The position numbers were made by a program, and so were the translations under genes. Below are positions 39,788 through 61,911 of a stretch of DNA of 64,000 nucleotides, one piece after another. The notes below the pieces were generated by a model, which was not told the DNA's origin, searched no databases, and saw only the letters and a program-made list of their open reading frames with translations. The stretch is from an uncultured SAR116 cluster alpha proteobacterium (GTDB lineage: Bacteria > Pseudomonadota > Alphaproteobacteria > Puniceispirillales > Marisalimonadaceae): the NCBI GenBank assembly GCA_902595515.1, contig CACJQK010000003.1, positions 1 to 64,000 of the forward strand. Reading direction: 5' to 3'. The first letter of the stretch is position 1. Each line of letters begins with the position of its first letter.

Positions 39788-40930
39788 ATGAATGTTGTAG
39801 ATAAATTAACAAGCCCATTTGACCAAAATAAATCTACATTAGACAATCTTAATAAAATGATTGATGGTGAAAGTCCTGAAACTAAGTCAATGAAAAATTT
39901 AATTGCAATGGTTTCTCAAACAGACAGCACCGCATTAATCTTAGGTGAAACTGGTACTGGCAAGGACATTGTGGCTCAAGCTATTCACAAATGTTCAAAT
40001 AAAAAAGGACCCTTTATAACTGTTAATTGTGCTGCAATTCCGTCTGAATTACTAGAGTCAGAACTATTTGGACATGAAAAAGGTTCATTTACAGGTGCAG
40101 ATAAACAGAGAAAAGGAAGATTCGAACAATCTAGTGGCGGGTCTCTTTTTCTTGACGAAATTGGGGATATGCCATTACCTCTTCAGGCTAAACTTTTAAG
40201 AGCTATTGAAAGTAAAACTATACAAAGAGTTGGTGGTGCACAAGATATTAAAATAGATTTAAGATTAATTTGTGCAACACATAGAAATCTTGAAAAAAAA
40301 GTTGAAAGTGGTGAATTTAGAGCAGATTTATTCTTCAGAATAAATGTCCTACCTATAAATGTTCCCTCTTTAGCTGAAAGAAGAACAGATATACCTAGTC
40401 TCCAAAAAACACTATTAAATAATCTAAAAGTTGATGAGACACAAAAACCAATTTTTACACCAGGTGCTATAACAGCACTTTGTAAACATAATTGGCCAGG
40501 CAATGTACGTGAGTTAAAAAATGTTATTGAAAGAGCTTGTATAATTTTTCCAGGTAAAGAGATTACAAGCACTAACGTTTTCGAAAATTTATTAAGATTG
40601 AAGGTTCCAACAATTGCCGAAGAACAAGAAGCACTTTGGGAAATGACTTCTGATCTAAGTGGAATAAGCAACCTTGAAGAAAATGAAGCTACAACAAACC
40701 TAGAAGATTACTTACCACACCCAAAGAATTATAAAAACTGGTTTTCTTTTTATGACGAAATAGATTTAAGGAGACATCTTCAAGATGTAGAAATTGTACT
40801 TATAGAAGAAGCTCTCGAAAAAACTAATAATAAGGTAGCACTTGCAGCAGATAAATTAAAACTTCGAAGAACTACCTTAATAGAAAAAATGAAAAAATAT
40901 TCAATAAATGTAAATCAAAATATTAATTAA
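39788..40930 (+). CDS. Sigma54 activator: AAA+ domain plus C-terminal Fis-type HTH, no receiver domain
   Basis: GETGTGKDIVAQAIH; GHEKGSFTGAD; C-terminal EIVLIEEALEKTNNKVALAADKLKLRRTTLIEKMKKYSI. Confidence 0.9.
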   Translation: MNVVDKLTSPFDQNKSTLDNLNKMIDGESPETKSMKNLIAMVSQTDSTALILGETGTGKDIVAQAIHKCSNKKGPFITVNCAAIPSELLESELFGHEKGSFTGADKQRKGRFEQSSGGSLFLDEIGDMPLPLQAKLLRAIESKTIQRVGGAQDIKIDLRLICATHRNLEKKVESGEFRADLFFRINVLPINVPSLAERRTDIPSLQKTLLNNLKVDETQKPIFTPGAITALCKHNWPGNVRELKNVIERACIIFPGKEITSTNVFENLLRLKVPTIAEEQEALWEMTSDLSGISNLEENEATTNLEDYLPHPKNYKNWFSFYDEIDLRRHLQDVEIVLIEEALEKTNNKVALAADKLKLRRTTLIEKMKKYSINVNQNIN

Positions 40931-42917
40931 TTAACCTCAAAAAAACTTCACCACTCGCGTTAGCTTGAGCAAGCATGGAAGAAGCAGCTTTAGACATAAT
41001 TTGAGCTTTTGTTAGCCTAGCTGTTTCTAGAGCAAAATCAGCATCTTCTATTTTAGATAATCTTAAGGAAGAATTATTCTTAGCGTCAATTAAATAACTT
41101 AATCTATGATCGATTGCATTTTCACTTGCCCCAAATTTTGCTCTTGTATTAGCTATTGTATCAATTGCAGTATCAATCTTAGTCAAAGCTGACGTGGCAT
41201 TTGAAGAATTTGATACTGAAACTATAGATCCCGGAGTTGATGCGCTGCTGGATGCTTGAGCTTGAAACCCAAGTTCGCCAACATCATCACCTGATATTTT
41301 TATAACATCTCCAGCAGTATGAGTAAGAAGTATTTGTCCCTTAAATGTCACTGAGCTACCTACAGAAATTGTCGCTCCGGTTGCGTCAGTATGACCATCA
41401 ATAAAAACACCAGCTGTTCCTGCATGTGCTATTACAATATCAGCTCCACTCGCGCTTGCAAGTTGAACTTCTCCACTTGAGTTAACAGAAGCAACAATAT
41501 CTCCAATAGAAGCATTATTAATAGCTGCAATAGTCTGAGTTCCGTTAGTTACACTAGAGAAATTTATTGCATTTCCATTTATACTTATATTAGAAGACGC
41601 CGATGAAGCTTCTGAATAATTCAAGGTTAACGTTACTAAATTATCTCCTGTAGCAGCAACATTTGTTGATGATGAGACAGCATTAATTGCAATAGCTTTT
41701 GACGCAGCTGATGCGCTATCTGATGCTCCAATTGCAACATCATTTATTTTAATATCATGAGATGCTGTAAGAGCATTCGTTGATACTAAATCTGATCTAA
41801 TAATGGTACTTGAGTCAACTTCATTAAAACCAAATCTTGCTAGATCATCAATGTTTCCACTGTTGGATGCGTATCCATTGGCTTTTGTCATGGCTTCAAT
41901 TTTAACAAATGTACCATCAACATTTTCTAACTTAATGTACCCCAAATAAGTGCCTGCCGTGAAACCCGCATCAGTTGGTGCATTGCCACCAATAACAATG
42001 TCATTCCCAGTAGTATTTGATAATGTAATTGTATTATCAGAATTTAATGTGGCTGTAACACCGCCAGCTTCTTGATTAATTTCAGTTACTAAGTTTTCTA
42101 AACTTGTTTGAATTGATATTACATTAGTATTAATTGTAAAACTATTGCTCATAGAAAGAGAGTTTTTTGCAGCTGATGTAAGTTTATTAAAACCAGTTGC
42201 AGTAGCACCGTGGGTATTCGAATTAGCATTAATAGCAGTAACCAGTGCGGCTGCTGTATTGTTTCCTGATGATAAATTATCAGTTAAGTTTGCTGCTAAA
42301 GCGTTTTGTGAATTAATTTTGATATCACTTGCTGCAAGATTACTACTATTGTAAGTAAATCCTGTTACTCGTCCACTGGTAAACTCTTTTACTCCAGATG
42401 ATCCAGACAAACCTAAAGCTGTACTATCAGATTTAACTAAACTAATAGAAATATTATCATCCTTATTCTCTCCGAGTAAAAAATTTACCTTGTCAACAGA
42501 TCCATCCAATAATTTAATGGTATTAAAGTTAATCAATTTTGTAAGTGCGTCTATTTCTGTCAAGTAGGAATCTATTTCAACCTGTAGTGTGTTTCTATCA
42601 GCTGTTGTTAAAGTTGAACTGCCACCTTGAACAGCTAATTCTCTTATTCGAGCGAGTAAATTATTTATTGAACTTAGACCACTATCAGCTGTTTGAGTAA
42701 GTATTTTTCCTTCAGCACCATTCGAAATTGCTTCACCTAAGGATAAAACTTGAGCATTTAACCTTGAAATAGGGCCTAAAGATGCCGGATCATCAGATGC
42801 ACGATTAATTCTTTTTCCAGAAGACAACCTCTCAGTAGTCTCTGTAATCTCTTTAATTTGATTAGTCATATTTCTTTGAATAAATTGAGAAGTAGTCAAA
42901 TTACCAATGTTAAGCAT
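40923..42917 (-). CDS. Flagellin 1 (664 aa), without the phage-like repeat module
   Basis: Flagellin N-domain (RLSSGKRINRASDDPASL...ARIRELAVQ) and C-domain (RLSKIEDADFALETARLTKAQIMSKAASSMLAQANAS). Confidence 0.93.
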   Translation of the reverse strand: MLNIGNLTTSQFIQRNMTNQIKEITETTERLSSGKRINRASDDPASLGPISRLNAQVLSLGEAISNGAEGKILTQTADSGLSSINNLLARIRELAVQGGSSTLTTADRNTLQVEIDSYLTEIDALTKLINFNTIKLLDGSVDKVNFLLGENKDDNISISLVKSDSTALGLSGSSGVKEFTSGRVTGFTYNSSNLAASDIKINSQNALAANLTDNLSSGNNTAAALVTAINANSNTHGATATGFNKLTSAAKNSLSMSNSFTINTNVISIQTSLENLVTEINQEAGGVTATLNSDNTITLSNTTGNDIVIGGNAPTDAGFTAGTYLGYIKLENVDGTFVKIEAMTKANGYASNSGNIDDLARFGFNEVDSSTIIRSDLVSTNALTASHDIKINDVAIGASDSASAASKAIAINAVSSSTNVAATGDNLVTLTLNYSEASSASSNISINGNAINFSSVTNGTQTIAAINNASIGDIVASVNSSGEVQLASASGADIVIAHAGTAGVFIDGHTDATGATISVGSSVTFKGQILLTHTAGDVIKISGDDVGELGFQAQASSSASTPGSIVSVSNSSNATSALTKIDTAIDTIANTRAKFGASENAIDHRLSYLIDAKNNSSLRLSKIEDADFALETARLTKAQIMSKAASSMLAQANASGEVFLRLIN

Positions 42918-44212: not shown

Positions 44213-44245
44213 GTGTTTCCCTACGAAATTAATTTGGAGATTGAT

Positions 44246-46477
44246 ATGCCAACAGTTAATTCTAATACTGCTTCACAGTTTGCGCTTAATAAAATGGCTG
44301 CAACAGAGCGTGATATGACTACGGCGATGGAAAGATTATCGTCAGGCAAACGTATTAATCACGCAGGTGATGACGCAGCGGGTGCAGCTATTGCTGACAG
44401 AATGACTGCTCAGATTAAGGGATTAGAACAATCAGTAAGAAATGCAGCTGACGTTATTTCAATGGCACAAGTTACTGAAGGTGCCTTAGACGAATCTTCT
44501 TCAATAATTCAAAGAATAAGAGAATTAGCAATTCAATCAGCATCAGATGTTATGAACGCAGAAGAACGTTCTTATTTGGATGCAGAAGTTGTTCAAATGT
44601 TAGCAGAATTAGATCGCGTAACTAGAGATACTACTTTTAATGAAATAGCAGTTTTAGATGGATCATTTGCAGATAGACGTTTTCAGATTGGAACACATGA
44701 ACGTGAATTTGCTCAGTTATCAATATCATCAATGAGATTGGACAGCTTAGGAGCGTACAAGGCTAAATCCCAAGGAACAGAGACAACTGATGACGCTGGT
44801 GGCCCAGTTGATAATGATAATTTAGCATTGAATGCTTATGCAGTTGCTGATACCTCAGAAACCAATTTGGTACAGGCAGAATCATTTACTATTCATGGTA
44901 TTTTGGGAAGTTCATCAGTAACTGCTGCAGAAGGATCGAATGTTAGAGATATAGCAACGTCTGTTAACGCCGTCTTTGACTCTACTGGAGTTACAGCTAT
45001 AGCGTCTACACAACTTAAAATTCAGGCAAAGACTTTAGATGCTTTATTTAATGGTCAAACAAGTGTTTCTTTTAGCATTCAAGGAAAAAATACTACAGCA
45101 GTTACTATTGCTGCAAATGTTACTTTAAATAACAGTGAGGGAAGTTCTGTATTATCTGAACTTAGAGATTCTATTAATAATTACACAACTACTACAGGTG
45201 TAACAGCAACTTTATCCACAGATAAATCATCTATAATAATGGTTCAAAACGAAGGTTATGATATTAAACTAGGTGATGTAAATTTTGCTGGTGATACTGT
45301 TACTGACGGAGCTCAAAGAACTTTATTAGTAACAAGCTTAGATAATGATGAGGTTGTAGCTGGAGACGCAGTATCTTTAGGTGACACAAATGTTACTACA
45401 ACTGATCAAAATGGTATCGTTACAATTGATACCAGTGGTCAAACAACTATTGGAAGTCTGGCTGGTACAGCTTTCGAAGCAACAGGTCCTCGCAAACATG
45501 GAACAAGCACAACATCAGTTGTTGCGACCCAAAGAATTAGAACAACTGAGGAAGGTATCAATGGTACTGGGTCCATGGTTATTTTAAATTCTGCTAATGT
45601 TCTTAATTCTTTCATAACAATGACATCAAGTGCAGCTACTGCTGGTATCACTTATAAAATAGTGGGAACTGATGTACATGGTAATGCTCAAGAAGAAACA
45701 ATTCCTGCATTTACTGGGGCCGTAACTTTAGAATCTACTAAAGTTTTTGGAACAGTTACATCAGTAGTGCCATCTGGTCAACATGCAACGGCCGAAGTTA
45801 GTGTGGGTACTCGAAACACAATTGCAAAGCAATCAGCACTTGTCACTGTCACAAGTTCTACTGGTGATGAAAGTGCTTTAACATTTACAGTTACTGGTAA
45901 AGGAATGGATGGTACAGATCTAACAGAAATAATAACCGGCCCTGCTGTAGGTAAAACAGTAACAGGCAGAAGAATTTTTACAGAAATACACACAGTTGTT
46001 GTATCTGGTGATACAGCTCAATCAGTTGATATTGGATTAAAAGCAGCGGATTCTGTCATTATTACTGGACAACTTGAAATGTCCTCTAGCAACAGTTTTA
46101 CAGTTGTTGGCGAAGATGGAAAAGGATTATTTGAAGCATCACCTGGTGCAGCATCATTAGATAAATTATCTGGTGTGAATGTAAAGACAAGACAGTCATC
46201 AATTGACGCATTACGAGTATTAGACAGGTCGCTTGATAGAATTCATAAAGAAAGAGCAAAACTTGGAGCTCTTATGAGCAGAATGGAAAAAGCGATAGAT
46301 AATTTATCAAATGTAGCTCTAAACACTAATGCTTCTAGAGGTAGAATTGAAGATGCTGATTTTGCAAAAGAGTCTGCACGATTAACTAAGGCACAAATTT
46401 TACAACAATCTGCTATGGCCATGATAGCACAAGCAGGAAAAGCACAACAAAATGTGCTTCAATTATTACAAAATTAA
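44246..46477 (+). CDS. Flagellin 2 (743 aa) with two internal GTD-repeat modules
   Basis: Flagellin N-domain (RLSSGKRINHAGDDAAGAAIADRM...QRIRELAIQ) and C-domain (GRIEDADFAKESARLTKAQILQQSAMAMIAQA); start chosen after GGAG RBS. Confidence 0.93.
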   Translation: MPTVNSNTASQFALNKMAATERDMTTAMERLSSGKRINHAGDDAAGAAIADRMTAQIKGLEQSVRNAADVISMAQVTEGALDESSSIIQRIRELAIQSASDVMNAEERSYLDAEVVQMLAELDRVTRDTTFNEIAVLDGSFADRRFQIGTHEREFAQLSISSMRLDSLGAYKAKSQGTETTDDAGGPVDNDNLALNAYAVADTSETNLVQAESFTIHGILGSSSVTAAEGSNVRDIATSVNAVFDSTGVTAIASTQLKIQAKTLDALFNGQTSVSFSIQGKNTTAVTIAANVTLNNSEGSSVLSELRDSINNYTTTTGVTATLSTDKSSIIMVQNEGYDIKLGDVNFAGDTVTDGAQRTLLVTSLDNDEVVAGDAVSLGDTNVTTTDQNGIVTIDTSGQTTIGSLAGTAFEATGPRKHGTSTTSVVATQRIRTTEEGINGTGSMVILNSANVLNSFITMTSSAATAGITYKIVGTDVHGNAQEETIPAFTGAVTLESTKVFGTVTSVVPSGQHATAEVSVGTRNTIAKQSALVTVTSSTGDESALTFTVTGKGMDGTDLTEIITGPAVGKTVTGRRIFTEIHTVVVSGDTAQSVDIGLKAADSVIITGQLEMSSSNSFTVVGEDGKGLFEASPGAASLDKLSGVNVKTRQSSIDALRVLDRSLDRIHKERAKLGALMSRMEKAIDNLSNVALNTNASRGRIEDADFAKESARLTKAQILQQSAMAMIAQAGKAQQNVLQLLQN
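45566..46045 (+). repeat. Two tandem GTD-repeat protein modules within flagellin 2
   Basis: ITYKIVGTDVHGNAQEETIPAF...STKVFGTVTSV and LTFTVTGKGMDGTDLTEIITGPAVGKTVTGRRIFTEIHTV. Confidence 0.78.
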
Positions 46478-46544: not shown

Positions 46545-49500
46545 TTATCCTTGAAGAAGAGCTAGTAAGTTTTGCTTAGATGCATTTGCCTGAGCTAACA
46601 TTGATGTTGCAGCTTGTGACAAAATCTGAGCTTTCGTTAGATTAGATGTCTCCTGAGCAAAATCAGCATCCTGAATTCTAGATTGAGCGGCTTCTGTATT
46701 AACTTTCAAAGTTGTTAAGTTACTTATAGAAGCATCAATTCTATTTTCAATGGCACCAAAAGATGATCTAAACTTAGAAACTTGTTCTATTGCTTTATCG
46801 ATCAATTCTAGGGAAGCATTTGCTCCAGCCATAGTCTCAACTGACACTTTTGTACCAGAAACTTCAAACTCTGCACTTTGACCCTGAATACCTAACTTTT
46901 GAAGAATGGTTTCAGTTGAGCCAAATGTACCGTCAACACCAGTCCTCATATTTGTATTAGAGTCTGCAGCAACAGTTTCAACTTTTATTGGGGTACCTGT
47001 TGAGTTAGAAAGTTCTAATTTACCACGAGAAGTAAAATCATCTCCTATACTTGCAGTATATCCAATTTTAACAGCGTTTGATGTAAAATCAACATCAAGG
47101 TCAATTCTTGATACGGTTGCAAAAGCTTTAGTACCAGTAGAAGTACCACTCTGAGCAGGACCAACTATTACTTCGGTTAAACTATTACCAAGCATGTCAG
47201 TACCATGAACAGTGATTGTACCGTTGGCTGCTGTAGCATTGTTTCCTTCAGTTATTGTAATCAATGCACCACCAAGATTTAAACTTGTAGCACCGGAAAC
47301 TAATGTCAATGCAGTAGCAGCACCATGGTCACCAGAAGCGACTAATCCATCATCATCTGCTACCTTATTACCATGATTGGCTGCGTTAGTTCCACCAGCA
47401 TTAGTGTTACCAATTGTACTTGCATTGGTATCAGCTTGTGAGGCAGTTATAGAAGTAACAGACTCGTACACATTTTTACTTAAAGCTTCAAGTGTACCAC
47501 CAGCTCCTCTTACAACCTCAGTAACTGTATTACCAAAAACATCTGTACCTGTTATAGTATAGTTTTGGTCAGCTTGACCAGTTATTGAACCAATGTCAAA
47601 AGTAAGTGTAGAAGTTTGATCAGCTACGATTTCAGTGACAGTATTAAAAGTTTTAATACCATCAACAGTACCATTTTGTGTTGCACCAGCAATAACCTCA
47701 GTTTGGACGTTTCCATCCATATCTGTACCAGTAATAGTAAAGTTTATACCAGATGCATCACCGTTATTTAGTTCTGTAATCCTAACCATTCTACCTTTTG
47801 GTGTTGCGCTTGTAGCTGTTGAAGTTAATGTCATTGCAGATGTAGAAGCTGTCTGACCATCAGACAATTCATCAGTATCTGTTACCGCACCAGCAGAAGT
47901 AAAAACAACTTGGCTATTAAAGTTTGATGGGCTCAACAATGTCAAGCTTGTATCTGTGATTGCAGCACTTGCACGTAGTGAATCAACGTCTTCATCACTA
48001 CCTCCAATAATACCACTAACACTTACTGTTCCATTAACATCTTTAAATGCCCTTATGAAATCAGTATCACCCTGATGAGTTACTCTAATGTCCACACCAG
48101 ATGCACTTGATAATGTAACAGCACCATCAGAATTAGCTTTAGCTCTTATGTCACCTACTGATGCATTATTGATTGCAGTAACAACACCTTCAATGCCATT
48201 AGCAGATGTTACATTAATTGAAGTACTATTAACAAAAAATTCAGTTGTACCACCAGGCATTGCACCAAAATTTAAAGCTAGCTGAACTTCGTTACTTGCT
48301 TTAGCAGTTACGCCTGACTCAGTAGATACTGCATTAATAGCTTCAGCTATAGAAGAAGCTTGACCTGTAGCTGAGGCTCCAATTAATACATCGTTAATTT
48401 TGATCTCATTAGCAGATAGAGCTGTACCACTTACAGTATCAGTTTCTAATATTGAACCAGATGAGGTTTCATTAAAACCTAGAGCATTAACATCACCAAT
48501 AGTACCTAGACCATCAGTATATCCGTTGACTTCACTTCCTGCTTCAATTCTAACAGCGGAACCATCTAAGTTTTTAAGACTTACAAAACCTGTATATGTT
48601 CCTGCTGTGAAACCAACATCTGAGGCAGCTGAACCTGCAATAACAATAGCTTCACCAGTTTTATTTGACAATGTTATTGTATTATCAGCATTTAATGCAG
48701 CGTTTATACCAGACACAGCTTCGTTAATGTTGGCTGTCAATTTTGAATATGATGTGGCAAGAGCGACAGTGTCACCATTAATTGTAAAAGTAGCAGATTG
48801 TGAAAAAGTACCTTTAGCAGTTGATTGAACAGAATTAAAAGCGTCTGCTTCTGCACCATGTATACCAGTATTAGCGTTTATTGCATCTGCTAATAACTTA
48901 GCTTCATTAGCTCCAGAAGCTGAAGTGTCCTGATTAAAGTCAGTTGCAAAAGCATTAAACCCATTTATCTTTACATCGGCAGCTGCAATAGTATTAGCAG
49001 TGTTACTAAAATCTTTTTCATCAATTCTTTCACTTGTTAATGTAGTAACACCAATAGCACCACTTAACCCTAATGAAATTGAATCAGAACTTTCTAAATC
49101 TACTTTCAATGTATCAGAGGCATTAATACCGATTTGGAATTTAACATCTACATTACTACCATCTAGTAATTTAACATTATTAAAATGAGTGTTTGCAGAT
49201 ATTTTATCAATTTCTTCAATGAGTTGATCAACTTCAGATTGTATCATGCTTCTGTCAGAGTCACTTAAAGTGCTGTTTCCAGCTTGAACTGAAAGTTCTC
49301 TTACTCTCTGCAACATATTTTCAACTTCACCCAAAGCGCCTTCAGCTGTTTGTGTCATTGAAATTGCATCATATGAGTTTCTGATTGCGACACCAAGACT
49401 TTTAACTTGGGATTCCATTTTAGAAGCGATGGCTGAACCAGCAGCATCGTCAGCGGCAGAATTGATTCTGAAACCAGATGATAGTCTATTCATTGCATCA

Positions 49501-49577
49501 TCTAAATCTGCATTCAATTTAACCATATTTTTTTGGGCTGTTAAAGCACCAATGTTTGTATTTATACTATTAGCCAT
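46545..49577 (-). CDS. Flagellin 3 (1010 aa) with three internal GTD-repeat modules
   Basis: MANSINTNIGALTAQKNM...RLSSGFRINSAADDAAG and C-domain SRIQDADFAQETSNLTKAQILSQAATSMLAQANASKQNLLALLQG. Confidence 0.95.
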   Translation of the reverse strand: MANSINTNIGALTAQKNMVKLNADLDDAMNRLSSGFRINSAADDAAGSAIASKMESQVKSLGVAIRNSYDAISMTQTAEGALGEVENMLQRVRELSVQAGNSTLSDSDRSMIQSEVDQLIEEIDKISANTHFNNVKLLDGSNVDVKFQIGINASDTLKVDLESSDSISLGLSGAIGVTTLTSERIDEKDFSNTANTIAAADVKINGFNAFATDFNQDTSASGANEAKLLADAINANTGIHGAEADAFNSVQSTAKGTFSQSATFTINGDTVALATSYSKLTANINEAVSGINAALNADNTITLSNKTGEAIVIAGSAASDVGFTAGTYTGFVSLKNLDGSAVRIEAGSEVNGYTDGLGTIGDVNALGFNETSSGSILETDTVSGTALSANEIKINDVLIGASATGQASSIAEAINAVSTESGVTAKASNEVQLALNFGAMPGGTTEFFVNSTSINVTSANGIEGVVTAINNASVGDIRAKANSDGAVTLSSASGVDIRVTHQGDTDFIRAFKDVNGTVSVSGIIGGSDEDVDSLRASAAITDTSLTLLSPSNFNSQVVFTSAGAVTDTDELSDGQTASTSAMTLTSTATSATPKGRMVRITELNNGDASGINFTITGTDMDGNVQTEVIAGATQNGTVDGIKTFNTVTEIVADQTSTLTFDIGSITGQADQNYTITGTDVFGNTVTEVVRGAGGTLEALSKNVYESVTSITASQADTNASTIGNTNAGGTNAANHGNKVADDDGLVASGDHGAATALTLVSGATSLNLGGALITITEGNNATAANGTITVHGTDMLGNSLTEVIVGPAQSGTSTGTKAFATVSRIDLDVDFTSNAVKIGYTASIGDDFTSRGKLELSNSTGTPIKVETVAADSNTNMRTGVDGTFGSTETILQKLGIQGQSAEFEVSGTKVSVETMAGANASLELIDKAIEQVSKFRSSFGAIENRIDASISNLTTLKVNTEAAQSRIQDADFAQETSNLTKAQILSQAATSMLAQANASKQNLLALLQG
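47052..47837 (-). repeat. Three GTD-repeat protein modules within flagellin 3
   Basis: INFTITGTDMDGNVQTEVIAGATQNGTVDGIKTFNTVTEI; NYTITGTDVFGNTVTEVVRGAGG...KNVYESVTSI; GTITVHGTDMLGNSLTEVIVGPAQSGTSTGTKAFATVSRI. Confidence 0.82.
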
Positions 49578-49661: not shown

Positions 49662-51920
49662 TTATTTTATATAAATATCATTTTTTGGTAAAGATGTTCT
49701 AAAATTTTGTGAGACTTTAATAAGTCCCTTTTCAAATTTTTTAATATAGTGCTGAGTATTTAATAACTGATTATTATCTTTTTTATTTTTTAGTATATTT
49801 TTTAATTTATCAATTTCCTTTTTATTTTTTCCCAATAATATACCTTTTTTTATATATTCTTCTTCTGATAAAGTTATCAAAGTTTCAAGATGTAATGATG
49901 TTAATACACTTCCAGCAACTCTTGAAGGGAAACTGTTTCCTAACAAAGTTAAGATTGGCAAACAACCATTAACTGCATCTATTGCTGTTGTATGGGCATT
50001 ATAATTAGACGTGTCTAAAAACAAATCTGCTAACTTGTGTCTTGCTAAATGTTGAGAAATTGAAACTCTTTTTGCAAAGATTATTCTCTCACTATCAACA
50101 CCGTTTATTTTAAATTTTTTCAAAAGTTTTGCTTTTAGAAGATCAGATTGGTGGGCTAACCATAAAATACTCTCTTTTACTTCTAATAAAATTCTACTCC
50201 AATGATCTAAATCCTGATCTGAAATCTTATAACCATTGTTAAAACAACAAAATATAAATTTATCTTCAGGGAGTTCTTCAATAGTTTTGTTTGTTTGAAA
50301 ATCGTAATTTTTACTATCGTCTGATATCAAATATGTGTCTGGCATATAAATTATTTTTTCTGAAAAAAATTGTTTTTTATTTTCAGGTATTACAATTTTA
50401 TCACCTACAATGTAGTCCATACAATCAGAGCCAAAAGTTCCTGGATAACCGAGATAATTAACTTGAATTGGAGCTAAGCGATTAACGAATAATGAGGGTC
50501 TTGAATATTGTGTATAACCCATCAAATCCACAGCAATCTCTATTTTGTAATCTCTCGATAATTTAATTATGTCTTTATCACTAAAATTTTTAACATTAAA
50601 AAATTGTTTTACATTTTCTTTTAAAAAATTTATTTCATCATTTTCTTGTTCATTTCCAAAAGAAAATATAAAAACTTCAAAATTATCTTTATCATATAAA
50701 CTGAATGCTTTTTTTAAAAGATGCATGACAGGGTGATTTTTAAAATCAGCAGAGAAGTACCCTATTTTAATTTTTCCATTGAAGCTATTTTGCTTAAAAC
50801 AATAACTGTTTTTAGCAGTTAAAATTTTATTACTGTAGTGTTTTGACGTTAGATATTGAACTTCATAATCATTTACTAGAGGCATCATAGTTAGTGGGGG
50901 TATAAATTCTCCTGGTTTTAAAGACGAAATTAACTTGATAGACTCTTTCTTAATATCTAAATTTTTAGATATTATATTTTCATTATTAATTCCTAAAATT
51001 GTTGATGATGCTTTTTTGAATTCGCCAGAATATATGTAAGCTTTCACTAAATTGAAATAAATATTCACAAAAGAATTATCTATACTTATTCCAAGCTTGT
51101 AAGTATCAATTGCTTTGTCGTATTTTTGCAAATTTAAATAACAATTTCCTAAATTATTATAAAATTCTGGGAATGACCCATCTATATGAATTGACTTTTT
51201 AGAAAAATCTATTGCATTTTCATATTGGCCTTGATTTGATAAAATGAGTGAAATATTATTATAGGCTCTTGAATTTTTTGGATCTAATTCAATAACTTTT
51301 TTAAACAATGAAATTGCTTTAATGTCATCACCCATTTTAGACAAACATAAACCTTTATTTAAGTAGGCAGGAACATAAGAAGGACTAATGTTTATGGATT
51401 TATCTAAGATATCTAATGCTTGGTCAAATTCACCACAACTTAAATACAAAAAACCTAAAGCATTCATAGCCCTAAAATTATTTGGTTTTGATTGAATGGC
51501 TGCCATATATAATATTTTTGATTTTTCAAAATCAAATAACTCTCTATAACTATTTCCAAGATTACATAGAGCTTCTTCATAAACAGGGTTAATTGTTATT
51601 GCTTTTTTTAATGGATCAAGAGCAGATTTAAATTCAGATATCTCATTTAACGAAGCACCTAAGTTATTATAATATTCTGCAACTTGAGGATTTAACTTAA
51701 TAGCTGTTTTAAAATAAGCCTGACCTTTTTCGTGTTTTTTTGTTTTTATATAAGAAACACCAAGTAAATTTAGTAAAAAAGTATTTTTTTTATTTTTTGT
51801 TAGTAATATTTCTCCATATTTAATAACTTTAGAAAATTCTCCCAAATTAAAATTATTCAGAATATCGTTAATAGTTTTTAAAAATAGATCCTTATCAATA
51901 TCACTGGACACAGCTTGCAT
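49662..51920 (-). CDS. TPR-repeat GT41 (O-GlcNAc transferase/SPINDLY-like) glycosyltransferase
   Basis: Multiple TPRs then KIGYFSADFKNHPVMHLL, RLAPIQVNYLGYPGTFGSDCMDYIVGD, FLDTSNYNAHTTAIDAV, FPSRVAGS. Confidence 0.92.
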   Translation of the reverse strand: MQAVSSDIDKDLFLKTINDILNNFNLGEFSKVIKYGEILLTKNKKNTFLLNLLGVSYIKTKKHEKGQAYFKTAIKLNPQVAEYYNNLGASLNEISEFKSALDPLKKAITINPVYEEALCNLGNSYRELFDFEKSKILYMAAIQSKPNNFRAMNALGFLYLSCGEFDQALDILDKSINISPSYVPAYLNKGLCLSKMGDDIKAISLFKKVIELDPKNSRAYNNISLILSNQGQYENAIDFSKKSIHIDGSFPEFYNNLGNCYLNLQKYDKAIDTYKLGISIDNSFVNIYFNLVKAYIYSGEFKKASSTILGINNENIISKNLDIKKESIKLISSLKPGEFIPPLTMMPLVNDYEVQYLTSKHYSNKILTAKNSYCFKQNSFNGKIKIGYFSADFKNHPVMHLLKKAFSLYDKDNFEVFIFSFGNEQENDEINFLKENVKQFFNVKNFSDKDIIKLSRDYKIEIAVDLMGYTQYSRPSLFVNRLAPIQVNYLGYPGTFGSDCMDYIVGDKIVIPENKKQFFSEKIIYMPDTYLISDDSKNYDFQTNKTIEELPEDKFIFCCFNNGYKISDQDLDHWSRILLEVKESILWLAHQSDLLKAKLLKKFKINGVDSERIIFAKRVSISQHLARHKLADLFLDTSNYNAHTTAIDAVNGCLPILTLLGNSFPSRVAGSVLTSLHLETLITLSEEEYIKKGILLGKNKKEIDKLKNILKNKKDNNQLLNTQHYIKKFEKGLIKVSQNFRTSLPKNDIYIK

Positions 51921-51950
51921 TTTTTCCTCATCGATATTTGTGAGATATTA

Positions 51951-51966
51951 TGCAAATCTAGTACCA
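51951..51966 (-). promoter_or_regulatory. Sigma54-like element upstream of TPR-GT41 glycosyltransferase
   Basis: TGGTACTAGATTTGCA; 5'UTR about 20 nt with GAGGAAAAA. Confidence 0.72.
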
Positions 51967-52013
51967 TTTAAAATAGCTATAATAACTAAAATTATAAAAT
52001 AACATATCGGTTA

Positions 52014-52029
52014 TGGAATAAAATTTGCA
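52014..52029 (+). promoter_or_regulatory. Sigma54-like element upstream of FkbM methyltransferase
   Basis: TGGAATAAAATTTGCA (C4 replaced by A). Confidence 0.58.
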
Positions 52030-52064
52030 TGTCAAAAACACATCATAAAATTAGAGAAAAAAAT

Positions 52065-52883
52065 ATGTTAAATATAAAATTTAAAAATAAAGAATTAAGT
52101 TTTTGGCAGATAGAAAGGTTATCACAAGAGCATAAATTGAATAAGTACGAGTTACTTGCTAGTGCTTTTAACCAAGACATCTTATATTCTGAAGAAACTG
52201 AGTTGTTAAAAAATTTTATATTATCTCTAAGAAATATTTCTCATATTGTAAAATCTCAAATTTTTCAGGATGCATTTGCACATTTTATTATTAGCCAAAA
52301 ATATGAGAAATCATTTTTAGAATTCGGAGCAACGAATGGTTTAGATTTATCTAATACTTTTTTACTTGAAAATAATATGAATTGGTCAGGTGTTGTAGCA
52401 GAGCCAAGCCCTCAATGGCATATGTCATTAGAAGACAATCGTCCAAAAGCAAAAATATTAAAAAAATGTATATGGAAATCATCTGGTGACAAATTAAAAT
52501 TTTTTATGTCGGATCTTGGTGAATTGTCAACTTTGAATGATTTTACCCATTCTGATGAAACAACATTACCCCAAAATACTGCATTAAGAATTAAAAGTGG
52601 AAGAATTATAGAAGTAAACACAATTTCATTAAATGATGTTATGAAAGAATATTTTAATGATAAAGCCCCTTCTTATATTTCTGTTGATACAGAAGGAAGT
52701 GAATTTGAAATATTATCTAGCTTTGACTTTAAAAAATATAAACCTATATTTTTTTCAGTAGAACATAATTTTACAAACCTAGAATCAAAGATAGATGATT
52801 TAATGATTAGTAACGGATATTTTAGGGTTTTCAAAAAGTTGACTTCATTTGATGCTTGGTATTTAAGAAATGATATTATTTAA
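52065..52883 (+). CDS. FkbM-family SAM-dependent methyltransferase
   Basis: SFLEFGATNGLDLSNTFLLENNMNWSGVVAEPSPQWH; SYISVDTEGSEFEILSSFDF; start moved downstream because the ORF-track start lies in the sigma54 -12 box. Confidence 0.85.
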   Translation: MLNIKFKNKELSFWQIERLSQEHKLNKYELLASAFNQDILYSEETELLKNFILSLRNISHIVKSQIFQDAFAHFIISQKYEKSFLEFGATNGLDLSNTFLLENNMNWSGVVAEPSPQWHMSLEDNRPKAKILKKCIWKSSGDKLKFFMSDLGELSTLNDFTHSDETTLPQNTALRIKSGRIIEVNTISLNDVMKEYFNDKAPSYISVDTEGSEFEILSSFDFKKYKPIFFSVEHNFTNLESKIDDLMISNGYFRVFKKLTSFDAWYLRNDII

Positions 52884-52999
52884 ATAAAATTCTAAATTTT
52901 TAAATAATTGTCCAATTACATAAATAATTGTAGTTAAAGGTTTAATAACATTTAAGTTGCTTAAGATTTACATCAAATTAAAAATAAATTTGTCAACTG

Positions 53000-53015
53000 T
53001 GGTATAGATATTGCA
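53000..53015 (+). promoter_or_regulatory. Sigma54-like element upstream of TPR-2OG oxygenase
   Basis: TGGTATAGATATTGCA. Confidence 0.65.
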
Positions 53016-53025
53016 TTTCTTGTTT

Positions 53026-54480
53026 ATGGAAAATGAACAAGTATTAGAATTTATTCAAAATCTATCTCCTGGTAAAAAAAAATACGAGGAAAAAAGAGCA
53101 AAAAAATTAAATTATAACTCTTTATATGATTATATTTTGTCTAAGTTTGAAAAGCCAAAACAAAATATTAGAACAGAAAATGATAGATGTGCAAAACATC
53201 AATCATTTTCATCTAGCGTTAAAAAAATTCCACCTAAGTATCAGATTGATAATCTTTACCAGCACTATCAAAACGGACAATTTAAAGACGCTGAAAATCT
53301 TGCACTAATTATTACTAAAAAATATCCAAAACATCAATTCGCGTGGAAAGTGTTAGGTGTTATTCTAAAAGAAAGTGGGCGTGTGGTTGAATCTTTATTA
53401 CCCAATCAAGAATCTGTAAAATTAGCACCAGAAGATGCTATAGCGCAAATGAACTTGGGATCCACACTCCAGGAATTAGGAAAATTAGAGGAAGCTGAAG
53501 TATGCTTTAGGAAAGCTATTATTTTAAAACCTGACAATGCTTATGCTTACTATAATATGGGTGTAACACTGAAAGAGCTAGGTAGATTTGAAGAAGCCGC
53601 AGAAAACTATGAACAAGCTTTGATTTTTAATCCTAATTATTTTGAAGCCTATTGTAATTTAGGCGCTTTGATGCAAGAACTCGGTAGTTTAGAAAAAGCT
53701 GAAATTAATTGTAGAAAAGCGATATCTTTAAAACCCAATTATGCTGAAGCCCATCATAACTTGGGTGTCGTCTTATACAGTAAGGGGAATATTGACAAAG
53801 GAATTGATAGTTTAGTAAAGGCAAACACTATTGATCCTAATTCAAGAGAAAGTGATTTAGTTTTATCAGTTTTACAAGGTAGAAAAACTAGAATGCAAAC
53901 AGAAATTAAAACTAATAATTCTAATGATATACATTATAAATTAGGCTTAAAATCAAACCCATTTTTTCTAAAAAGAAAAGTTGAACCAGAATTAATAATG
54001 TCATTATCCCAACTGCAATCAAGAAAAATGGATGAAGCTAAAAATACACCTGTTTTTGGAAATGGTAGATGTTCACTTGATTACAATATGTTCGATCAAG
54101 CATGTCCATCAATTAAAAATTTGGAAACTGATTTAACTGAGCTTATGAAGTCTGCTGTAAATTCAGATATATATATATATGATTCTTTTTTTAATATTTA
54201 TGGTGCTGGAGCTGGAATTCCTCCACATACACATTTAAGTGCAATTGATAAAGATAAATATCTTAATTTAGCTAAACAAAAGTATAGCCTTGTTTATTAC
54301 GTATCGGTTGGTGACCAAAATTGTAGTGAACCAGGATTTTTTAAGCTTTATGATCCTGAAGAACAGATACTTCCAAGTAACGGTATGGTTATAATAATAC
54401 CAGCAGATAGAGTGCATTCAGCAGTTTATAATGGTACAAAAGACAGAATCATAATTGGTATTAATTTTTATAGTTTATAA
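53026..54480 (+). CDS. TPR protein with C-terminal 2OG-Fe(II) oxygenase domain (PF13759-like)
   Basis: Central TPRs; GAGIPPHTHLSAIDK...YSLVYYVSVG...GFFKLYDPEEQILPSNGMVIIIPADRVHSAVYNGTKDRIIIGINF. Confidence 0.85.
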   Translation: MENEQVLEFIQNLSPGKKKYEEKRAKKLNYNSLYDYILSKFEKPKQNIRTENDRCAKHQSFSSSVKKIPPKYQIDNLYQHYQNGQFKDAENLALIITKKYPKHQFAWKVLGVILKESGRVVESLLPNQESVKLAPEDAIAQMNLGSTLQELGKLEEAEVCFRKAIILKPDNAYAYYNMGVTLKELGRFEEAAENYEQALIFNPNYFEAYCNLGALMQELGSLEKAEINCRKAISLKPNYAEAHHNLGVVLYSKGNIDKGIDSLVKANTIDPNSRESDLVLSVLQGRKTRMQTEIKTNNSNDIHYKLGLKSNPFFLKRKVEPELIMSLSQLQSRKMDEAKNTPVFGNGRCSLDYNMFDQACPSIKNLETDLTELMKSAVNSDIYIYDSFFNIYGAGAGIPPHTHLSAIDKDKYLNLAKQKYSLVYYVSVGDQNCSEPGFFKLYDPEEQILPSNGMVIIIPADRVHSAVYNGTKDRIIIGINFYSL

Positions 54481-54486
54481 TTTATA

Positions 54487-56598
54487 ATGATAACCAAGCA
54501 TCAAAAAAAAACACTTAAACAATCCAAACATAATTTCTCTATTACTTTAGACACTCTTCAACAAATGCAAAATAATAGAGACTACAAAAACATTGTGAAT
54601 TTACAAAGTATAATTTTTAAGAAATTTAACAATGATTTTAGAGTTCTTAACCTTCTTGGAATAGCCAACAAAGAAAATGGAAATTTAGACAAAGCTATTC
54701 ACTTCTTTAATTTATCATTAAGAATTAATCCAAATTATATAATTGCATTGAATAATTTAGGAAATATTTATAATTATATCGGGAAATTTGACGAAGCAAT
54801 TTGTTTGTTTTTAAGGGCTATAAATAATTCACCAAATAATACTGTTTTGTACTCAAATTTAGGTAACTCCTATTTGGGCAAAGAAAACTTCAAATATGCT
54901 GTTGAATATTACAATAAAGCCTTAAATCTTGATCATACTAACTTTGACGCGCACTTTAACATAGCAAATAGTTATTTTAAAATTAATAACAATATCATGG
55001 CTATGAAACATATAATCATAGCATTGAATTTAAATCCAAATCTCAAAGATATATGGAAACTATTTGGATACATTTGTTCTCATACTGTTTTTGAAAAATT
55101 CGATCAAAATATTGCCGATAAAATTAATTTACTTTTAGATCAAAATACAAATTATAATTTAACTATTAGCAAAAGTTTGTTTGAAAAATTAAAAAAACAC
55201 ATACAAGTTAATGAATTTCTTTCTCTCAAGAAAGAAAATTATAATGTTAAAAATGTCATTGATATTTGCTTTTGTCTTAATAAAACATACTTGCCTAAAT
55301 TATTGTCTAACTTGATTATAACTGACATTGATTTTTTTAATTTATGTCAAAATTTAAGAGAATTTATTTTATTAAATTGCAATAAATTTAAAGGAAATAA
55401 AAATGTATTAAATATAACACAATCAATTGCAAAACAATGCCATATGAATGAATATATATTCAATATTACTAATAAAGAAAAGGTAATTTTAAATAAACTC
55501 AAAAATTTTAGTAAAGCTGAAATTAACAGTGGAAGATTTGTTAGTGAGTTAGAATTATATATTTTAAGTTCTTATGAATATTTAGATTATTTGCATAATT
55601 ATGTAGAAGATTTAGATAAAATATACTCTTCAAAAATAATATCACAAATTATTAAAAATTTTTTGAAAGAAAAAGAAATTCAATCTCAATTTCTTTCTAA
55701 CAAAATATTAGACAATACAGTGTCACAAGCAGTTTCGTCTATGTATGAGGAAAACCCCTATCCTCGATGGGAAGTAGCAAGTATTCATCAATATAATTTT
55801 ACGATGAGACAATTCGCTTATTACAAAAAACTTATTTCTAATGATTTTGATGGTACTGGTAAAATTGTTAAAATATTAGTAGCTGGTTGTGGTACCGGAC
55901 AACAAATAGTTTCATTAAGTGGCATATTTAAAAATAGTTTAATTGATGCAATTGATATTAGTGCTGCAAGTTTGGCTTATGCAAAAAGAAAAATAGAAGA
56001 ATTAAAATTAAACAATATTAATTTTTCCAAGACAGACATTTTAGATCTTCAAAATTTTAATACAAAGTATGATTATATTGAATGTTCAGGCGTCCTTCAT
56101 CATATGGGAAACCCGGAAAAAGGTTTTGAAATATTAGTTAATTCACTTAATCCAAATGGTATTATAAAAGTAGGCCTATACAGTTCTATCGCAAGATCTA
56201 CAATTAACAAAGCAAGAGAATTTATTAAAAATAAAAATATTAAATTTTCAATCGAAAACTTAAGAGATTTTAGAACTAATGTAATTGAAAAAAAACCTAC
56301 CTATGAAGAATTTGATGAATTATTAAATTATACAGATTTTTACAGTACAAGTAACTGCAGGGATTTACTTTTTCATATTCAAGAAAAACAATATAATCTT
56401 GAAGATATTAAAAATTTGATAGATAAATTTAATATGAAATTTGCTGGATTTGATTTTATTAACCAATATACTCAACAATATTTTAAAAACAGCTTTCCCC
56501 AACAAGATTCAGAGTATAATTTGAATAACTGGGAAAAATATGAACAAGAGAACATCAATACTTTTTTGGGTATGTATAATTTCTTTTTAATTAAATAA
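54487..56598 (+). CDS. TPR protein fused to class I SAM-dependent methyltransferase
   Basis: N-terminal TPRs; ILVAGCGTGQQIVSLSGIF...YIECSGVLHHMGNPEKGFEILVNSLNPNG. Confidence 0.87.
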   Translation: MITKHQKKTLKQSKHNFSITLDTLQQMQNNRDYKNIVNLQSIIFKKFNNDFRVLNLLGIANKENGNLDKAIHFFNLSLRINPNYIIALNNLGNIYNYIGKFDEAICLFLRAINNSPNNTVLYSNLGNSYLGKENFKYAVEYYNKALNLDHTNFDAHFNIANSYFKINNNIMAMKHIIIALNLNPNLKDIWKLFGYICSHTVFEKFDQNIADKINLLLDQNTNYNLTISKSLFEKLKKHIQVNEFLSLKKENYNVKNVIDICFCLNKTYLPKLLSNLIITDIDFFNLCQNLREFILLNCNKFKGNKNVLNITQSIAKQCHMNEYIFNITNKEKVILNKLKNFSKAEINSGRFVSELELYILSSYEYLDYLHNYVEDLDKIYSSKIISQIIKNFLKEKEIQSQFLSNKILDNTVSQAVSSMYEENPYPRWEVASIHQYNFTMRQFAYYKKLISNDFDGTGKIVKILVAGCGTGQQIVSLSGIFKNSLIDAIDISAASLAYAKRKIEELKLNNINFSKTDILDLQNFNTKYDYIECSGVLHHMGNPEKGFEILVNSLNPNGIIKVGLYSSIARSTINKAREFIKNKNIKFSIENLRDFRTNVIEKKPTYEEFDELLNYTDFYSTSNCRDLLFHIQEKQYNLEDIKNLIDKFNMKFAGFDFINQYTQQYFKNSFPQQDSEYNLNNWEKYEQENINTFLGMYNFFLIK

Positions 56599-56603
56599 AT
56601 AAA

Positions 56604-59283: not shown

Positions 59284-61911
59284 TTAATCATCTTTGTTCA
59301 TGGCTTCAAAGAGGTTTGTTAAATATTCACCTGTCGATTTAAGGCTTGTTACAGCCTGTTCCATGCTTGTAAACTGTTTTACATATCTATCTCTTAAAGA
59401 TGTCATTTGGGCATTTAAATCAATCAGTAAAGCTGATTGGTCTGTTACTTCTTGATTAATAGTTGTTTCTCGTGTGGACAATTGTCCGTTTGAAGTATTA
59501 AGTGTTTCTGTCAAAAATGAAGTTAATTTTTCAATGAGACTCTGTCCGTAATAGATAGTTGCATCAGATCCTAACCCTGAGTATTTAACTTTTAATCCAG
59601 CTGCATTTCCTGAGGTAATAGTAAAAATTTTATTCGATATATCTGCTACCATTGCAACATTATCCAATGTAGCAGAACCGGTTACACCAGTAGTCGTAAT
59701 GCCGGCGCCCGTAAAACCCAGAGTTACGGAACCTGAAGTGTTGGCTGAAGGAGTAATTGACGAAATTGTTTGAAATGTTTTGGACCCTAGGACTGTTGCA
59801 TTAGCGGCGGGACCAGTAATAACTTCTGTTTGAGCATTACCTGACATATCTGTTCCAACAACAGTAAAAGTTTTGCTACTTTCATCTCCGCCTGCACTTA
59901 CAATTGACGGTCTTTTTCCAGTTAGGTCAACAAAAGCTGATTTTGTTCCAATATTTACTCCTGAAGCTGCTGAGTTTGATGAAATTTGTGTAATATCTCT
60001 AAATATTTTTGTTCCTGTAACACTATTTCCAGCAGTTGGACCTGTAATTGTCTCAGTTTGGGAAGTCCCATTAATATCTGTTCCAGTTATAGTAAAAGTA
60101 ACAGATGACAAATTATTAGAACTTGCTACTGTCACAAATGAGTTAAGATTTGTTGCCGATCTAGGACTAGTTGCAGTTGTTTGTGCTCCATCAAGTGTAA
60201 AATTACCAGTACTACCAAGTGTTTCATTATCGACAAGTCCGTCTGGATCAGTTGTAGTAACAGACGTGCCATTTAGTAATAAAGCAGTATCAGCTGTACC
60301 TGATTGTGAGGTTCCAATATTATCAGCATCAGTTGTTCCTTCAAATTTTAAAAACCCATCTAAATTACTTCCTATTGCGTTAACCACAATTGACGAAGAC
60401 GATCCAGTTGATCCAGAGGTAATAGAATAACTTCCATTAGAATGAGTAACAACTACAGACTTTCCAGCAGCAGTTAATGTACTATCTGCATTAATTGCCG
60501 TTTGAATAGCTGTTGCAAGTGCAGCTTCAGATGTATAGTGAGCAGCTGGTACACTTACTGAACCCGATTGAGTACCATCAACTGTTACCTGGATAGTGTT
60601 ATTTGAGCTGGTAACCTCTGGGGATGTATCACTACTAACTAGTCCTGTGAAAGCACCTGATACATAAGCTGTCATTGCAAAAGCATATGAACCAGCGACC
60701 GGTTTAGAACTGCTACCTCCACTTACAGAAAGCAGACTGGATGATGATGAATACATTGAATTAAAAATAGCATCTAAAGATGTAGGATTATTTTTTAATT
60801 CGTTCTCTAGTACTGTTGTGTTTAGACTTAGTAAACCATCTTTTTCTGTCCTTACTCCTAAATTGGAAAGATAAACTCCATTTGCTCCAAAACCTGTTAG
60901 TTGGTTAGTTGTTAATGCATTTAGTTGTTTTTGGATACTTTTAATAACGGGGTCATCTGACAAATCACCAGCTTCTTTTGAAGCAGATCCTCTAAATGTT
61001 TTTTCATTTAATAAAGTTCTAGCTTCATTTACTGCTGTTACAAAAGATTGTAGACTTGTAGTAGCTGAACTGGTGTCTACTGAACCTGTTAAATTTGCTG
61101 GCGTATCGGTTCCATTTACTGTTGTTGATGCTAGTAAGTTAACATTATATCCAGTAAATAAGTCTGAAATACTATTTGATGATCTAGTCAAGGAAATGCC
61201 GTCAACAGAAAAAGATGCATCAGTTCCTGCAAGTTTTTGTTTAGAACCATTAGTTGTTGTGTTGTCGATAGCTGAGAGGCCTGAGCCTGATGGGCTCTCA
61301 GTAGCTGTTATTCTTAATGCATTCTCTTTTCCATTTTGTGACTTTAATACAAGAGTAAATGTACCATCACCTGCACCTATTACGCTTGCAGTAGTTCCAT
61401 AATCTAATGCGTTGATTTTATCTTTTAAGGACTCAAGCGTGTCGGTTTCAGTTACTGATAAAGTTTTTGATGAAACTGTTGCACTAGCAACAAAACTGCC
61501 TGAAGACCAGTCACCTCTTTCAAGAACTAAACTTCCTGCGCCAACAAGATAAGTATTTGATGTATAATCTTCAAATGCTAAAGTTTGTCCTTTAGCTAGG
61601 GTAGAAACGCTAATTGATGAATTTATAGCTACTGCAGTAGATGGATCAGAAATAGTTGCACTAACTGCTGAACTAGTTGAATTTACCTTTAATGATGTGT
61701 TTCCTGTTAAAGTGCTTAATGAAGTAGAGAGTTTAGATAGTGCACTTTTTATTTCACCAATAGCAGAAATTGCTGTATTTCTTGCATCTATTTTTGATTG
61801 AATTTGATTTTCTTGTGGTGCTTGTTCTGCTTCAACTAAGCTATCAACAATTTGAGTTATATTAAGACCACTGCCTCTTTGATTAATTGCACTTAAATAA
61901 TCTACAGCCAT
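59284..61911 (-). CDS. fliD: Flagellar filament cap FliD (875 aa) with two internal GTD-repeat modules
   Basis: N-terminal GSGLNITQIVDSLVEAEQAPQ; flagellin-IN-like segments; C-terminal YGQSLIEKLTSFLTETLNTSNGQLSTRETTINQ...RYVKQFTSMEQAVTSLKSTGEYLTNLF. Confidence 0.93.
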   Translation of the reverse strand: MAVDYLSAINQRGSGLNITQIVDSLVEAEQAPQENQIQSKIDARNTAISAIGEIKSALSKLSTSLSTLTGNTSLKVNSTSSAVSATISDPSTAVAINSSISVSTLAKGQTLAFEDYTSNTYLVGAGSLVLERGDWSSGSFVASATVSSKTLSVTETDTLESLKDKINALDYGTTASVIGAGDGTFTLVLKSQNGKENALRITATESPSGSGLSAIDNTTTNGSKQKLAGTDASFSVDGISLTRSSNSISDLFTGYNVNLLASTTVNGTDTPANLTGSVDTSSATTSLQSFVTAVNEARTLLNEKTFRGSASKEAGDLSDDPVIKSIQKQLNALTTNQLTGFGANGVYLSNLGVRTEKDGLLSLNTTVLENELKNNPTSLDAIFNSMYSSSSSLLSVSGGSSSKPVAGSYAFAMTAYVSGAFTGLVSSDTSPEVTSSNNTIQVTVDGTQSGSVSVPAAHYTSEAALATAIQTAINADSTLTAAGKSVVVTHSNGSYSITSGSTGSSSSIVVNAIGSNLDGFLKFEGTTDADNIGTSQSGTADTALLLNGTSVTTTDPDGLVDNETLGSTGNFTLDGAQTTATSPRSATNLNSFVTVASSNNLSSVTFTITGTDINGTSQTETITGPTAGNSVTGTKIFRDITQISSNSAASGVNIGTKSAFVDLTGKRPSIVSAGGDESSKTFTVVGTDMSGNAQTEVITGPAANATVLGSKTFQTISSITPSANTSGSVTLGFTGAGITTTGVTGSATLDNVAMVADISNKIFTITSGNAAGLKVKYSGLGSDATIYYGQSLIEKLTSFLTETLNTSNGQLSTRETTINQEVTDQSALLIDLNAQMTSLRDRYVKQFTSMEQAVTSLKSTGEYLTNLFEAMNKDD
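59707..60156 (-). repeat. Two tandem GTD-repeat protein modules within FliD
   Basis: VTFTITGTDINGTSQTETITGPTAGNSVTGTKIFRDITQI and KTFTVVGTDMSGNAQTEVITGPAANATVLGSKTFQTISSI. Confidence 0.82.

Follow-up and report, generated by a model that had tools for sequence, protein, structure and literature searches.

How does a flagellin come by a large new outer domain, and where does such a domain come from? The question is raised by three flagellin genes in a 64,000-nucleotide stretch of a SAR116 alphaproteobacterial contig, referred to here as the window. From the letters and open reading frames of the window, a sequence-only reading had described flagellin 3 as flagellin 1 plus a modular insertion of about 330 aa, a three-repeat block, and had taken the two proteins as a before/after pair for domain gain in a filament protein. 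The features discussed below are collected in Table 1.

Table 1. Flagellar genes, insert and module repeats; positions are those of the window unless another contig is named.
Feature	Position	Strand	Description
Flagellin 1	40926..42917 (ORF 40923..42917)	-	664 aa; D2 scaffold as in flagellin 3, repeats absent, core divergent
Flagellin 2	44213..46474	+	754 aa called from GTG; two repeat copies
Flagellin 2 repeat 1	45584..45808	+	HMM 3e-24
Flagellin 2 repeat 2	45812..46036	+	HMM 1e-24
Flagellin 3	46548..49577 (ORF 46545..49577)	-	1010 aa; D0/D1, D2 scaffold, ~345 aa insert, D1/D0
Flagellin 3 insert	47031..48062	-	residues ~506-849; gap boundaries from pairwise and multiple alignments
Flagellin 3 repeat 1	47589..47819	-	residues ~587-663; repeat HMM 2e-24, genome search
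Flagellin 3 repeat 2	47409..47579	-	residues ~667-723; HMM 3e-18; N-terminal end shorter; strands in model
Flagellin 3 repeat 3	47061..47288	-	residues ~764-839; HMM 6e-23
FliD filament cap	59287..61911	-	875 aa; two repeats; Pfam FliD_N 5.5e-14, FliD_C 6.4e-30
Two FliD repeats (59716..60159)	59947-60159 and 59716-59904	-	genome search
FlgK junction protein	L273:11104-17826, beyond window end	-	2243 aa, ~9 repeats

Both terminal flagellin domains are found in flagellin 3, the N-terminal D0/D1 helical domain (Pfam Flagellin_N, PF00669) at 1.6e-42 over residues 5-142 and the C-terminal D1/D0 helical domain (Flagellin_C, PF00700) at 3.5e-26 over residues 923-1008, and by these two domain assignments we class it as a bacterial flagellin (FliC). 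Solved flagellar filaments resemble its predicted model by fold. Flagellin 1 likewise possesses both domains (Pfam), and for flagellin 2 an ATG at 44246 is a likely alternative to the called GTG start. A protein identical to flagellin 3 is encoded on two public SAR116 contigs, in agreement with an origin of the window in the SAR116 cluster (Puniceispirillales). The 148 kb contig holds four Flagellin_N matches; three are the flagellins of the window and the fourth, which lies just beyond it, is an FlgL-like protein of 430 aa. After the flagellin cluster, at 49662-58739, lie several TPR proteins whose C-terminal parts, judged by eye, are glycosyltransferase-like or methyltransferase-like; these are possibly flagellin glycosylation genes.

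Global alignment of flagellins 1 and 3 shows them to be collinear over residues 1-500 of the former and 1-505 of the latter, after which a single large gap opens in flagellin 1. Collinearity resumes at 'FKGQILL' in flagellin 1 and 'RGKLELS' in flagellin 3 (the 'GxLxLS' segment) and continues through to the end; the isolated letters aligned within the gap, roughly flagellin 3 residues 506-850, are a product of chance. Between the two proteins, identity is 49% for the C core, 41% for the N core and 46-48% across most of the outer region. Some 355 aa of the outer domain align collinearly at ~46% identity and, because the flagellin 1 outer domain (146-503) scores 771 against flagellin 3 when the maximum of 500 shuffles is 144, the homology of the two outer domains is not due to chance. 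The pairwise alignment and gap-boundary check that the sequence-only reading had proposed thus bear out its main claim: the long shared D0/D1 and variable region is collinear, the boundaries are clean and flagellin 3 has the scaffold of flagellin 1 plus a modular insertion. Its description of the insertion was right as to the three repeats and wrong as to extent, since the insert is ~345 aa long and only ~210 aa of this are repeats, the remainder consisting of linkers and a lead-in on the N-terminal side. The long forms of flagellin 3 also have ~20 further residues directly after 'RGKLELSNSTGTPIKV'.

Neither flagellin 1 nor the short flagellin 3 alleles contain the insert. Indeed, comparison of the insert with flagellin 1 yielded no counterpart (alignment score 119, below the shuffle maximum of 139) and no repeat remnants. 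The idea that the repeats arose within the flagellin, by duplication of its D2, was rejected, as the insert does not score above shuffles against flagellin 1. The repeats themselves are three diverged copies, 57-77 aa in length, of a module that is ~75 aa when complete and has the consensus 'FTVTGTDxxGNxxTExITG...TGTKxFxTVTSI...VG'; on reversed and shuffled controls the repeat HMM gave a best E of 0.07. In the predicted model of flagellin 3 each repeat has 5-6 strands, and the repeats form separate all-beta stretches between the D2 part and D1, with a pLDDT of ~70-88 in repeats 1 and 3 and a lower value in repeat 2. No Pfam or NCBIfam domain was reported within the insert, and Pfam and PDB searches with the repeat returned nothing credible and no solved structure that matches the domain.

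We scanned the flagellin loci of the genus and the order for repeats and added the sister genera. Repeat-bearing flagellin 3 was found in 15 genomes of one genus (three copies in 11, two in four), with open frames of 907-1045 aa. Repeat-less flagellin 3 occurs within the same genus in G004, G005, G009, G017, G033 and G806 (669-723 aa). It is also found in G803, G809, G811, G819 and G821 (676-710 aa), which belong to the sister genera g461 and g463. The intermediate repeat counts that the earlier reading had suggested looking for in relatives therefore exist, flagellin 3 being found with 0, 2 or 3 copies. None of the 28 flagellin 1 genes (open frames 663-703 aa) has a repeat, and flagellin 2 in relatives has two copies, three in a few species and none in a form of 592-596 aa. 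Flagellin 3 is tandemly duplicated in G007, where the copies are near-identical, and in G004, G005 and G017 (L121, L117, L119, L134).

On a tree built from 568 insert-free columns, the repeat-bearing flagellin 3 sequences form one clade (support 99/96; with the sister genera 100/98), and when the tree is rooted on flagellin 1 they are nested among repeat-less flagellin 3. Since flagellins 1 and 3 both occur in the sister genera, their split predates the insertion. Identity to long flagellin 3 in the N core is 72% for short flagellin 3 and 41% for flagellin 1, and the flagellin 1 stem is ~1 change per site long. The position of flagellin 1 shifts, falling with short flagellin 3 on D0/D1 and with F3alt on the scaffold before the sister genera were added, which is typical long-branch behaviour. 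Flagellin 1 is an old, fast-evolving paralogue that is older than the genus split and has a diverged core, and the earlier choice of it as the 'before' partner has to be given up: it is not the direct ancestral state. The better 'before' state is repeat-less flagellin 3 itself, found in sister species and in two sister genera.

The opposite order of events, in which the repeats were already present before flagellins 1 and 3 diverged and later disappeared from flagellin 1 and the short alleles of flagellin 3, has some points of contact with the data. Flagellin 2 of the same genomes has repeats at an analogous site, and a phylogeny with basal repeat-bearing flagellins, which the sequence-only reading had set against a gain, proved less likely on D0/D1 but was not rejected by the AU test (p 0.251; p 0.118 in an earlier, larger set). 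Deletion would, however, require separate losses in flagellin 1 (28 genes), F3alt, the g461 flagellin 3 and one or two groups of short flagellin 3, as against one gain. Moreover, the carriers are a single nested clade with the root on flagellin 1, the sampled flagellins in other families of the order are repeat-less (G875, of family f2, apart), and the repeat-less forms of flagellin 2 suggest a separate gain in that protein. We thus consider deletion very unlikely. When outgroups are included in the D0/D1 tree, a repeat-less branch splits off first within the group (99/89). The claim of domain gain is upheld by the single carrier clade and by parsimony, if not by the AU test; gain is far more parsimonious than deletion and a single gain would account for the distribution, a conclusion that is well supported although not proven.

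Two observations made in the course of the survey concern particular sequences. The genome G875 (L304, L305), filed in another family, has two sets of the SAR116 family's flagellins beside its own, and these extra sets probably reflect a contaminated bin. Flagellin 1 shows an inverted pattern of conservation across the genus, with a mean pairwise identity of 83% in the outer domain and 74% in the N core; the usual pattern is seen in flagellin 2 (N core 92%, outer domain 79%) and flagellin 3 (75% and 49%). It is also without the usual N-terminal start motif and may be a specialised minor subunit.

The module is common to four axial proteins of one flagellum, namely flagellin 3, flagellin 2, the cap protein FliD and the junction protein FlgK, and a search of the source genome found it absent from FlgL and flagellin 1. 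The identity of FlgK is given by TIGR02492 (1.7e-70) and by the Pfam domain FlgK_D1 (1.3e-42); the NCBIfam FliD model matches FliD at 5.3e-41, a value below that model's cut-off. Confinement of the repeat to one genus was rejected, as an order-wide scan finds it in four genera of the family. FlgK is also giant in other families of the order (~1200-2030 aa), yet without repeats. Within the family, FlgK-sized open frames have repeats in G801, G804, G816 and G820, where the F2-type flagellin (592-596 aa) has none, and G030 has a single copy, in FliD, its FlgK being broken by contig ends. From this we infer an order of spread in which FlgK and FliD would have come first, flagellin 2 next and flagellin 3 last.

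The flagellin 3 repeats may have been copied within the genome from flagellin 2, FliD or FlgK and not have arrived from an external source. This is a variant of our best explanation, differing in the immediate source only, and we rate its chances as appreciable, if somewhat short of even. In species with repeat-less flagellin 3 the neighbours already have the module; the repeats of flagellin 2 and FliD are mutually close, with 65-69% identity at most; and in both flagellin 2 and flagellin 3 the exchange site is followed by a comparable 'GxLxLSS/N' segment. On the other hand, the flagellin 3 repeats for the most part cluster among themselves instead of branching from within those of flagellin 2, albeit in a weak tree, and one G008 repeat is nearest to phage repeats (65% over 63 aa). 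On average the flagellin 3 repeats are no nearer to the repeats of flagellin 2, FliD or FlgK than to those of phages (mean best bits 39-41), and fast evolution may have erased the trace of copying within the genome. Recent conversion from flagellin 2 was rejected, since the repeat tree mostly separates the repeats of flagellins 2 and 3.

We found relatives of the module encoded in 197 viral contigs of IMG/VR (tblastn; best 67% over 63 aa), and an HMM made from the flagellin repeats alone detected 90 copies in viral ORFs at ~1e-7 to 1e-18, mostly 1e-12 to 1e-18. The viral ORFs with the module are mostly ~200 or 320 aa long and have one or two copies each; there are no flagellins among them, and a search of the viral contigs with full flagellin 3 gave no match. 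Where the context was read, the viral repeat gene follows shortly after the major capsid gene. In the viral contig L161, for example, the portal gene (phrog_1216) is followed by those for the major head protein (phrog_371), a small protein and the repeat protein, and then by genes for tail-type or virion structural proteins. An isolated phage, the Pelagibacter phage HTVC023P (MN698239), encodes a relative of the module protein, gp42, two genes past its capsid gene. It was found in INPHARED only with a viral protein as query; the flagellin repeat itself had no match among INPHARED phages. The predicted model of the viral repeat protein is all-beta (pLDDT 81), in structure it most resembles uncharacterised phage proteins, and a fold search against the PDB gave no match at 1e-3. 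In the source genome the module sits inside flagellar genes and not in a virion structural gene module, and by this gene context it is best described as a shared domain, not a prophage gene. Transfer would have run from phage to bacterium, a direction we infer for a repeat too short for a rooted tree.

Bacterial matches outside SAR116 were few: three genomes among the 384 other Alphaproteobacteria sampled and four among 398 Pseudomonadota. Another alphaproteobacterium, G712 (L283), has two repeat copies in an open frame of 9496 aa, probably a giant surface protein. These matches bear on whether the insertion is ordinary turnover of a hypervariable region, the module being a generic beta-rich surface domain that is widely reused and not particularly tied to phages. 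Replacement and enlargement of flagellin outer domains are documented (PMC7018530, PMC6248924, PMC5595980), and the repeat in the 9496 aa open frame is what such reuse might produce. Against this, detectable homology is concentrated in viral contigs and one SAR116 family, with very few matches elsewhere in ~780 sampled genomes, and flagellin 2 of relatives contains a second, unrelated virion module. We regard ordinary turnover as unlikely, though less so than deletion.

Flagellin 2 of G014, G022, G031, G003 and G020 (L112, L114, L115, L116, L131) has a further insert of ~220 aa. In G014 this insert holds the second module, an 'IGSEYFTYTG..GVTRG' unit whose hits among phage families are to virion structural proteins, baseplate wedges and tail fibres (2e-15 to 3e-12), with relatives in 115 viral contigs and 67 phage records, mostly of cyanophages and pelagiphages. 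Because two unrelated virion modules are found in the flagellin outer domains of one bacterial family, a domain pool shared by flagellins and virions seems more likely than one accident. In flagellin 3 of G014, G022 and G031 (L112, L114, L115) there is yet another insert, unlike the repeat block, ~330 aa long and ~60 residues upstream of the repeat insertion site; no viral relatives of it were found.

At the level of sequence, the homology, the insertion boundaries, the distribution and the single carrier clade are established. Building on these, we propose as the probable explanation that the flagellin 3 outer domain was enlarged by a phage-type all-beta cassette, gained once, of a module family already present in FlgK, FliD and flagellin 2. 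The ~345 aa cassette of small all-beta domains would have been placed just before the last beta segment that returns to D1, most likely in a single gain in the ancestor of one subclade of the SAR116 genus, long after the split between flagellins 1 and 3. Its module family would have entered FlgK and FliD earliest, then flagellin 2 and lastly flagellin 3, and would ultimately derive from the phage gene pool; head-proximal proteins of marine tailed phages have the module as a domain. In flagellins the filament is built by D0/D1 and the surface by the middle of the chain, and assembly depends little on the outer domains (PMC8931119, PMC7018530). D0/D1 of flagellin 3 would keep forming the filament core while the shared D2 scaffold carries the cassette outward and, because the insert sits in the surface part of the flagellin, the repeats most likely project outward. 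They would form the outermost surface, such that filament, cap and junction may display related domains. Our best guess at their role is surface contact, adhesion or sheath-like packing rather than assembly. A more speculative extension, which we think improbable, slightly more so than ordinary turnover, is that a single pool of surface domains supplies both SAR116 flagella and the virions of marine phages that occur alongside them, and that filament and virion bind the same ligands or particles or the filament acts as a decoy or mimic. If this were so, flagellin evolution in the open ocean would partly be a history of capture from phages.

Gain of a domain by a flagellin is already known, from flagellinolysin (PMC5595980) and the giant flagellins (PMC6248924). 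The novelty here lies in which module is involved and how far it has spread, a virion-type domain being present in four axial flagellar proteins, with before and after states in sister species; we found no report in the open-access literature of a domain common to flagellin, FliD, FlgK and phage. In a large survey, a source was known for no hypervariable region in the two species studied (PMC7018530). The present work names a candidate source pool for flagellin outer domains, the virion proteins of marine phages, and makes filament domain gain testable in an abundant ocean lineage.

Four known systems are comparable. HTVC023P gp42 is a relative of viral proteins with one module copy but, unlike flagellin 3, it is ~200 aa long, is encoded by a stand-alone gene in the virion gene module and has no flagellin domains. 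Flagellinolysin is likewise a discrete domain in a flagellin hypervariable region, with related flagellins that do without it (PMC5595980). Its HExxH metallopeptidase was not detected in flagellin 3, where NF033876 gives 24.6 bits against a cut-off of 205 and matches core residues 112-143 only; flagellin 3 has instead a repeated all-beta module and no sign of an enzyme. The outer-domain-sheath flagellins of EHEC H7, EPEC H6 and Achromobacter likewise have several outer domains beyond D1, which are thought to serve adhesion and waveform (PMC8931119), but searches did not link the repeat by sequence to any solved structure. Finally, flagellin 3, at 1010 aa, is of giant flagellin size (>1000 aa), as are the flagellins of the marine gammaproteobacteria Bermanella and Oleibacter, whose outer region has likewise been enlarged stepwise by repeat units and inserts (PMC6248924). 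In those proteins DE units are copies of a flagellin region and DX inserts lack relatives elsewhere, whereas the unit of flagellin 3 is common to FlgK, FliD and marine phage proteins.
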